Assembly: GCA_022710185.1 (NCBI GenBank)
Contig: JAKLHK010000013.1
Coordinates: 1-64,000, forward strand
DNA: 64,000 bases
Source: Bacteroidota bacterium
Lineage (GTDB): Bacteria > Bacteroidota > Bacteroidia > Bacteroidales > JAGNHN01
Direction: 5' to 3'
The position numbers and the translations under genes are program-made. The notes beneath the pieces were generated by a model. The model was not told the origin of the DNA. It saw only the letters and a list, made by a program, of their open reading frames with translations, and did not search any database. This document shows positions 28,877-49,094 of the stretch, piece by piece; position 1 is the stretch's first letter, and each line of letters opens with the position of its first letter.

Positions 28877-28960
28877 GCCCAGGTGGCGGAAATGGTAGAC
28901 GCGCATGGTTGAGGGCCATGTTCCTGTTCGGGAGTGCAAGTTCGATTCTTGTCCTGGGCA
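28877..28960 (+). tRNA. tRNA-Leu(GAG)
   Basis: This is an 84-nt class II tRNA. The acceptor stem GCCCAGG/CCTGGGC pairs perfectly with discriminator A28960. The anticodon stem CATGG/CCATG encloses loop TTGAGGG, so the anticodon is GAG (28911-28913). A long variable arm and the T-arm loop TTCGATT are present. CCA is not encoded. Confidence 0.95.
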
Positions 28961-28981
28961 CTGCAAGCGGAAAAGTTCTTT

Positions 28982-29065
28982 GCCCAGATGGCGGAATTGG
29001 TAGACGCGCTGGTTTCAGGGACCAGTGATCGCAAGGTCGTGCAGGTTCGAGTCCTGTTCTGGGCA
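28982..29065 (+). tRNA. tRNA-Leu(CAG)
   Basis: This 84-nt class II tRNA starts 21 bp after the first one. The acceptor stem GCCCAGA/TCTGGGC pairs perfectly. The anticodon stem CTGGT/ACCAG has loop TTCAGGG, so the anticodon is CAG (29016-29018). Long variable arm; CCA is not encoded. It is probably co-transcribed with tRNA-Leu(GAG). Confidence 0.95.
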
Positions 29066-29117: not shown

Positions 29118-29316
29118 CAGCCCTCCCCTATTTAATGCAACGCCAGCCCAATGCCGCGAACACGGTACCCAGCCTTGCCACGACAGACCATAAAAGGGTC
29201 GGGTGAGCAAAAGAAAGTGAAGCAAGAAAAACAATGCCTTCAGCTGAACCTGAATCAAGAACCCGTTGGGATCCTCATGGTCACCCGCATGAATTCCCCA
29301 TTGTGCCGTTTTAACC

Positions 29317-47122: not shown

Positions 47123-47932
47123 ATGCTGCTCCAGCTGACAGAAATATTCACGGACATGCGTATCCTGGACGCGATAGACCTCATCCTGGTGGCCTATCTG
47201 CTCTACGAGTTCTACCGCCTGATGCGGGGTACCAGCACCATCAACATCTTTTTCGGGATCATCAGCATCTACCTGCTGTACAAGCTGGTGAACTATCTCG
47301 ACATGGCCCTGCTTTCGGAGATCCTCGGGGCCTTCATCAGCGTGGGGGTCATCGCGCTCATCGTGGTGTTCCAGCCCGAGATACGGAAGTTCCTCCTCAT
47401 GCTGGGCACACCCGGCTATATCCGCAAGAACTCCCGCCGGTTTCTGTTCTGGCGGATCACCTACTCCTCGGTGCCTGAACTCGACACCCAGGCCGTGCTC
47501 CAGGCCTGCGAAGACATGGCGGCCACCTTCACCGGCAGCCTCATCGTGATTGAGCGGGGCAATGAGCTGGGCCAGTTCGCGGAAAGCGGCACCCGTCTCG
47601 ATGCCTCCCTTAGCCCCACCCTCATTGCCAGCATCTTCTTCCATAACGCACCATTACATGACGGCGCGATGATCATCGCGCGCAACCGCATCCAGGCCGC
47701 CGGCTGTATCCTCCCCGTTTCGGCCAACCCCCATCTGCCGCCCCATCTCGGGCTCAGGCACCGCGCCGCCATCGGCATCACCGAACAAAGCGACGCCCTG
47801 GCCATCGTGGTTTCGGAAGAAACAGGCAAGATCTCCCTGGCCGAACATGGGCAGCTCAAGGAGGATCTCAGTATGGAGGAGCTCACCGCCATGCTGCAGG
47901 AGCAGTTCCCCGGACAGGAAAACAAGCATTAA
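47123..47932 (+). CDS. cdaA: Diadenylate cyclase CdaA (DisA_N domain)
   Basis: This 269-residue protein has three N-terminal TM helices (about 15-35, 40-58 and 68-88) followed by the DAC domain (about 110-250). The catalytic motifs DGA (180-182, in PLHDGAMII) and RHR (212-214, in LGLRHRAAIG) are intact, so it should make cyclic di-AMP from two ATP at the inner face of the membrane. The position next to folP agrees with other Bacteroidota as I recall them. Confidence 0.95.
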   Translation: MLLQLTEIFTDMRILDAIDLILVAYLLYEFYRLMRGTSTINIFFGIISIYLLYKLVNYLDMALLSEILGAFISVGVIALIVVFQPEIRKFLLMLGTPGYIRKNSRRFLFWRITYSSVPELDTQAVLQACEDMAATFTGSLIVIERGNELGQFAESGTRLDASLSPTLIASIFFHNAPLHDGAMIIARNRIQAAGCILPVSANPHLPPHLGLRHRAAIGITEQSDALAIVVSEETGKISLAEHGQLKEDLSMEELTAMLQEQFPGQENKH

Positions 47933-48539
47933 AGCATGTTCTGCCTTATGCCCCGGCGACTGGATCACGCCTGGGTGGAGGAAGCTTCGGGCAGCATCTG
48001 TCCAGGCTATCGAATGCCCTATAACAGCTCAACGGAGAATTCATGTGGGGTAGACTTGATTGATCCATCGGGCTAATGATTCTGATTCACCTGAACGGAT
48101 GGTTTTTTCTTTACTTTCTTTTACTCACCCAAAAGAAAGTAGCAAAGAAAAGGGTGGCCTGGGTTTTCCGTAGGAAAACAAGCCTGAGGATGATTGGAGT
48201 GAAGTACAAGGTTTTGAGAATGGAGCGATCCGCGAGCTCAGGCTTGGGAGTACCACGCGAGTAGTCCCGCAGCGGCCCGGATCGCGACTCCCATCTGAAG
48301 GCGTAGTTTTCAAGGAAATCCAACGCAGTCCTGATCTTTTACTCGCAAAGTGTTCATTAATAAGGTGCTCGTGAGCTCAGGAAGCGCAAGCGCTTCCTTC
48401 GGTTGGTACTTTTCTATCAAGAGAAAAGAACTGAAAACTCTTTCAGATCAGACCAGGCATCATGTCTATGGGGTCCATAATTGTTGGCCAGATCATCAAG
48501 TGATCTCTTACCGCCCCACCCGAATGCTGCGGTGATCCT
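47933..48539. other. Gene-free region with a hairpin-rich element
   Basis: This 607-bp region has no credible gene. Its middle (48105-48446) is packed with perfect inverted repeats: TACTTTCTTTT/AAAAGAAAGTA (48112-48122, 48131-48141), GTTTTCC/GGAAAAC (48163-48179), CAAGCCTGAG/CTCAGGCTTG (48179-48188, 48237-48246), GCGATCC/GGATCGC (48224-48230, 48279-48285), GGAAGCG/CGCTTCC (48380-48397), CTTTTCT/AGAAAAG (48409-48428) and CTGAAA/TTTCAG (48431-48446). It could be a non-coding RNA, an attenuator-type structure or a decayed mobile element. The flanks (47933-48104 and 48447-48539) show nothing I recognise. Confidence 0.6.
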
Positions 48540-49094
48540 TTATACCGGCCCAGCTGAGCTGTCGGCTGCCGCTTCAAACTCCCGGATGATCTCTTCCGGG
48601 GATTTTCCCAGGTTGCGGATGCAGGCTTCGGCATCGTCGGCGAAATCGCTGGAAGGATAAAGCCGAAGGAACTCCCCATACAGCATGCGGGCCCTGCCCA
48701 GGTCACCCAGCTGGTTCTCCGCAATAAAGGCCTGCATGAACAGGGCCTCATCGGCCTTACCATGCTCAGGGTAGTCCCTGCAGAGGCGTTCGAACTGGGT
48801 CAGCGCCCCTTCGGATTGTCCCAGGGTCATCATGAGCTCGCCTGCCCCGAAGAGGAAGCCGGGGACCAGGGTATCCCTGGGGTGCTCGTGAATGAATGCC
48901 ATGAAGGCGCGGGTCAACTCATCGGCCGCCTGGGCATCGAAGGCGCGACTTTCCTCTGAAATAACGCGTCCGCGCAAATCCTCGATCTCATCCAGGGCCT
49001 TCTGGCGGGAGTCCTGACAAGAAAACAGGGTGAGGGTGAGGAGGAGGAAGAGGGAATGGGGTGCAAACGGTGTGATGATCCTGGGCATGGTCAT
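48540..49094 (-). CDS. TPR-type lipoprotein of unknown function
   Basis: This 184-residue predicted lipoprotein has the lipobox LFSC. The mature part has tetratricopeptide-like helices, with the periodic segments AFMAFIHEHPRDTLVPGFLFGAG, GALTQFERLCRDYPEHGKADEALFMQA and RARMLYGEFLRLYPSSDFADDAEACI. This is the pattern of BamD/YbgF-type repeat proteins, but it is shorter than BamD. It is probably periplasmic and anchored. A minus-strand -7 box TATTTTTG (plus-strand CAAAAATA, 49109-49116) lies 14 bp upstream of the start. Confidence 0.75.
   Translation of the reverse strand: MTMPRIITPFAPHSLFLLLTLTLFSCQDSRQKALDEIEDLRGRVISEESRAFDAQAADELTRAFMAFIHEHPRDTLVPGFLFGAGELMMTLGQSEGALTQFERLCRDYPEHGKADEALFMQAFIAENQLGDLGRARMLYGEFLRLYPSSDFADDAEACIRNLGKSPEEIIREFEAAADSSAGPV

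Follow-up and report, generated by a model that had tools for sequence, protein, structure and literature searches.

The window, i.e. the whole 64,000-nucleotide stretch of Bacteroidota DNA that was analysed, contains a gene-free, hairpin-rich gap with cdaA (47123-47932), coding for a DAC domain, on one side and a gene for a TPR protein, located on the minus strand (48540-49094), on the other. Between positions 48105 and 48446, 12 perfect inverted repeats with an arm of at least 6 bp and a loop of 3-60 were counted, where the initial annotation had claimed at least seven. The same count over 373 equal-length windows gave a mean of 4.1 (sd 2.0) and a maximum of 11, and the value of 12 was reached by none. 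The stem CAAGCCTGAG/CTCAGGCTTG was located at 48179-48188/48237-48246, exactly as annotated. The stem GCGATCC/GGATCGC was found at 48225-48231/48279-48285, with the 3' arm as annotated and the 5' arm displaced by one base. Both named stems are therefore present and, as had been proposed, they cross. The ORF list showed no convincing gene in this interval, the overlapping ORFs being only mechanical (61-70 aa), in agreement with its description as gene-free. The boundaries 48105-48446 did not hold: they enclose just the inner part of a larger unit, which extends from 48026 to 48538.

The 25 bp at the two extremities of this 513-bp unit repeat each other imperfectly in inverted orientation. The left terminal inverted repeat, AGCTCAACGGAGAATTCATGTGGGG (48026-48050, plus strand), has one mismatch to the end pattern and the right one, GGATCACCGCAGCATTCGGGTGGGG (48514-48538, read on the minus strand), has none. 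With this pattern, which covers both 25-bp ends and allows up to 3 mismatches, we found 17 matches in the genome of origin and 0 with the reversed control; within the window it matched nowhere but at this element's two ends, and shuffled sequences gave no match. The flanks CCTATAAC (48018-48025) and TTTATACC (48539-48546, overlapping the stop codon of the TPR gene) agree at 5/8 positions, the chance of a match of at least 5/8 being 0.027, and form a candidate decayed target duplication. In a genome of the same genus (G001), the folP-cdaA-TPR-ompA order and orientation are kept and the element is absent, with a cdaA-TPR gap of 31 bp compared to 607 bp in the window; the two gap sequences are too diverged to give exact breakpoints.

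The end pattern also revealed, on contig C30 (1859-3272), a complete insertion sequence (IS) of 1,414 bp with the same ends, which had not been used in making the pattern. Its pair of ORFs matches NF049916 (124.5 bits, cut-off 55) and NF049917 (460.6 bits, cut-off 250), the NCBIfam models of the ISAon1 N-terminal part and transposase, as well as Pfam DDE_Tnp_ISL3, and its transposase is the only one of the ISAon1 type found in this genome. The IS is flanked on both sides by the target duplication ATAAGATC (8/8), and its right end is 88% identical to the right terminal inverted repeat of the window element. None of the papers searched names ISAon1. The IS sits within a PemK/MazF-like gene (PF02452; L117:1387-1611), part of a probable toxin-antitoxin pair.

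Four pairs of facing ends were identified in the genome, delimiting the window element (513 bp), the IS on C30 (1,414 bp) and two further elements on C6 (277 bp) and C50 (279 bp). By end-pattern matches, the genome holds three two-ended gene-less elements and nine single ends, copy numbers that were taken from searches and are lower bounds. The C6 element (68832-69108) matches the window element over 118 bp on the left (92%) and 117 bp on the right (96%), around a short and different middle. It carries a perfect target duplication, CTGATCAC, on both sides (8/8). The flanks of the gene-less C50 element match at 5/8 positions, and the duplications of the window and C50 copies have apparently decayed. 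The left ends, GGCTCAACGG, and the right ends, GGATCACCGC, are alike in the IS and the small elements, single changes aside, showing that they share ends in both orientation and sequence. Over part of the 25 bp the left end of the IS differs from that of the small elements (GAAAGTAGG versus GAATTCATG), so that this exact IS may not be their mobiliser. Inside the ends, sequence comparison of the IS with the small elements showed nothing convincing in common. A degenerate second piece in the window (29201-29307, minus strand), made of a left-end-like sequence and the beginning of the first interior module, M2, is 71% identical over 106 bp; it lies about 140 bp downstream of two tRNA genes (28877-29065).

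Taken together, the facing 25-bp ends, the empty site and the C6 relative make it very probable that 48026-48538 is a MITE-like non-autonomous transposon with ends related to those of ISAon1-type IS (ISL3 superfamily). The initial annotation had left open a structured RNA or a non-autonomous mobile element, and the second option is borne out by shared terminal repeats, an autonomous partner, two perfect 8-bp duplications and an empty site in the same genus. Many near-identical copies with target duplications had been predicted for it; several copies do exist, two of them with 8/8 duplications, and what they share is the ends, the interiors being different. A transposase encoded elsewhere would have recognised the 25-bp ends and, being of the ISL3 type and acting in trans, would have placed the element next to the TPR gene's stop codon, duplicating about 8 bp of the target. 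Mobilisation in trans is the probable route, and the source may be the C30 IS or a close relative since lost. The window copy is probably old and inactive, its age being suggested by the decay of the presumed duplication and by a first base that departs from the end consensus.

The window element has in common with ISAon1-type IS its imperfect ends of 25 bp, which are asymmetric between left and right in the same way, and 8-bp target duplications are seen at C30 and C6; it differs in having no transposase gene and an interior unrelated to the IS. The ISL3 element ISPpu12a has imperfect 24-bp ends and an 8-bp duplication (PMC4133298). Descriptions exist of prokaryotic MITEs whose borders alone are shared with a partner IS (PMC3852290), and the window element is like them in having no ORF and in conserving only the borders of its partner; it differs from them in its few two-ended copies, its mosaic interior and its length, 513 bp being longer than usual. 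TIMEs (PMC4133298) and BIMEs are likewise gene-less and are, or form, mosaics of modules, but TIMEs have Tn3-type ends, and BIMEs, which lack such terminal repeats, are built of short REPs arrayed in alternating orientation.

Searches of 40 relatives gave no copy of the element, and the DNA search over 400 genomes scores few candidates per genome, so that distant copies could escape. In 394 further genomes of this phylum, the end pattern gave single 3-mismatch matches in two only, a low count which, the pattern having been written from these ends, is no independent test.

The interior was then compared with the rest of the genome. A 401-bp query returned an 88% identical copy of 267 bp on contig C45 and a dozen shorter pieces sharing different parts of the query. 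Comparison of these pieces gave the order left end, M2, M3, M4 and right end. Module M2 (48103-48150) is a T-rich hairpin with the loop ACTCACCC, replaced by GCTCACCC in other copies, and was found on C6, C23, C50 and C3 and in genome G299. Module M3 (48162-48325) contains the crossing stems; it begins with GTTGGATTTCC in other copies, its left halves are present on C16, C27 and C3, and the 88% copy on C45 has no terminal inverted repeats. Module M4 (48340-48431) carries the two short hairpins AGGAAGCGC/GCGCTTCCT and GTACTTTTCT/AGAAAAGAAC. No matching ends were found around M3 and M4 at C45. The interior is a mosaic whose palindromic modules are also found on their own; these modules, which differ between copies, account for the hairpin density. 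More generally, dense intergenic inverted repeats can arise from accumulated palindromic modules of mobile DNA. Searched over GTDB contigs, the M3 core gave 7 scattered matches in unrelated groups, near our chance expectation, and none in viral contigs. Two viral-contig matches of GTTGGATTTCCGTNGNAAA were rejected as unrelated sequence.

The crossing stems had suggested a structured non-coding RNA, in which they would form a pseudoknot or act as a switch between two folds. The stems exist, and predicted folding is more stable than that of dinucleotide shuffles on both strands (z of -3.3 on the plus and -2.4 on the minus strand). The C45 copy, which differs from the window at 36 of 278 aligned positions, nevertheless breaks 3 of the 10 pairs of CAAGCCTGAG/CTCAGGCTTG. 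The stem GCGATCC/GGATCGC is invariant between the two and hence uninformative. With one crossing stem broken and the other unchanged, the crossing fold is left without support, also from the covariance analysis called for by the initial annotation: no compensatory change was found in the crossing stems in this single full-length comparison. In the same comparison, TGGGAGT/ACTCCCA and GTTTTCC/GGAAAAC lose two pairs each and GCGATCCG/CGGATCGC is invariant. No Rfam family fits at gathering or relaxed thresholds (one match to a miRNA model, E 0.85, was rejected as chance), M3 is missing from other copies or cut short in them, and no promoter-like site emerged from a simple sigma-70 scan, a method that may be ill-suited to this organism. 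We consider this RNA extremely unlikely. The locus is a fairly ordinary non-autonomous mobile element and not a new structured RNA, and what appeared as an RNA candidate becomes an IS/MITE pair that defines the ends of an ISAon1-type element.

Pairing is maintained in three short local hairpins. Compared with C45, AGGAAGCGC/GCGCTTCCT shows one compensatory change and GTACTTTTCT/AGAAAAGAAC two, plus one pair gained, i.e. three compensated pairs in M4. In nine sequences of the M2 hairpin, pairing is kept through two-sided changes at three pairs. Three measures, namely paired cells, cells with two-sided changes and the covariation score, exceeded all 500 shuffles and all slid versions, but the count of pairs with two-sided changes was unremarkable (95/500), in a set of related sequences, four of them from one other genome, that represents few events. 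Selection on a DNA or RNA hairpin would give this compensation, and so would the correction of palindromes during replication. A 26-nt hairpin, CTTTCTTTTGCTCACCCAAAAGAAAG, has exactly the same sequence, including its loop, in this genome as in G299, which belongs to another class and has neither the terminal repeats nor the end pattern. What most merits further attention is these compensatory changes in short hairpins, one of which two classes have in common. The interior hairpins might represent a distinct class of small palindromic elements. Its members would be found in distant classes of the phylum, some within MITEs and others on their own, and would be kept as hairpins through selection or through palindrome correction, an idea that we regard as doubtful. 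On contigs C14 and C27 of G299 (L093, L095), the M2 hairpin has the identical 8-nt loop GCTCACCC and is surrounded by large palindromic mosaics of that genome's own.

In another reading, which the retained pairing favours, the element would now work chiefly as a structure that ends transcripts or stabilises mRNA for the convergent gene pair. Most copies do lie between convergent genes (12/18, against 8/37 of the window gaps), as assigned by a crude gene caller that misassigns some strands in this GC-rich DNA. Such placement is also expected if insertions elsewhere, in genes or promoters, were removed, palindrome correction in replication can restore hairpins without any function, and a simple scan showed no terminator-like site. 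A main role of this kind is unlikely; as a secondary one, it would be compatible with the MITE explanation.

The mosaic of palindromes in intergenic sites, together with the presence of one gene for a REP-associated tyrosine transposase (RAYT) in the genome, also recalls a REP/BIME-type element moved by that enzyme. This origin is very unlikely for the element as a whole: it shares its 25-bp ends, and its relatives share their 8-bp duplications, with a DDE-type IS, and the palindromes flanking the RAYT gene are different. RAYT was rejected as the mobiliser since the only Y1-type transposase found, on C16, is the one surrounded by these different palindromes; mobilisation of single interior modules by RAYT is possible. 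The RAYT gene (NF047646, 98 bits) lies at L031:1310-2280, at about 40.6-41.6 kb of C16, and its flanking palindromes are of the GCGCGCGTCTGTGACGCGTGC type, forming a separate REP/RAYT pair.

A further, separate module of 133 bp was found at some 12 positions of the same genome, with copies about 92-98% identical, among them C20:97-731, C37:1-364, C35:26635-26767, C50:126149-126241, C23 and C1:278210-278342. It is spaced by about 250 bp in C20 and often lies at contig ends, so it probably forms a repeat array at which the assembly broke.
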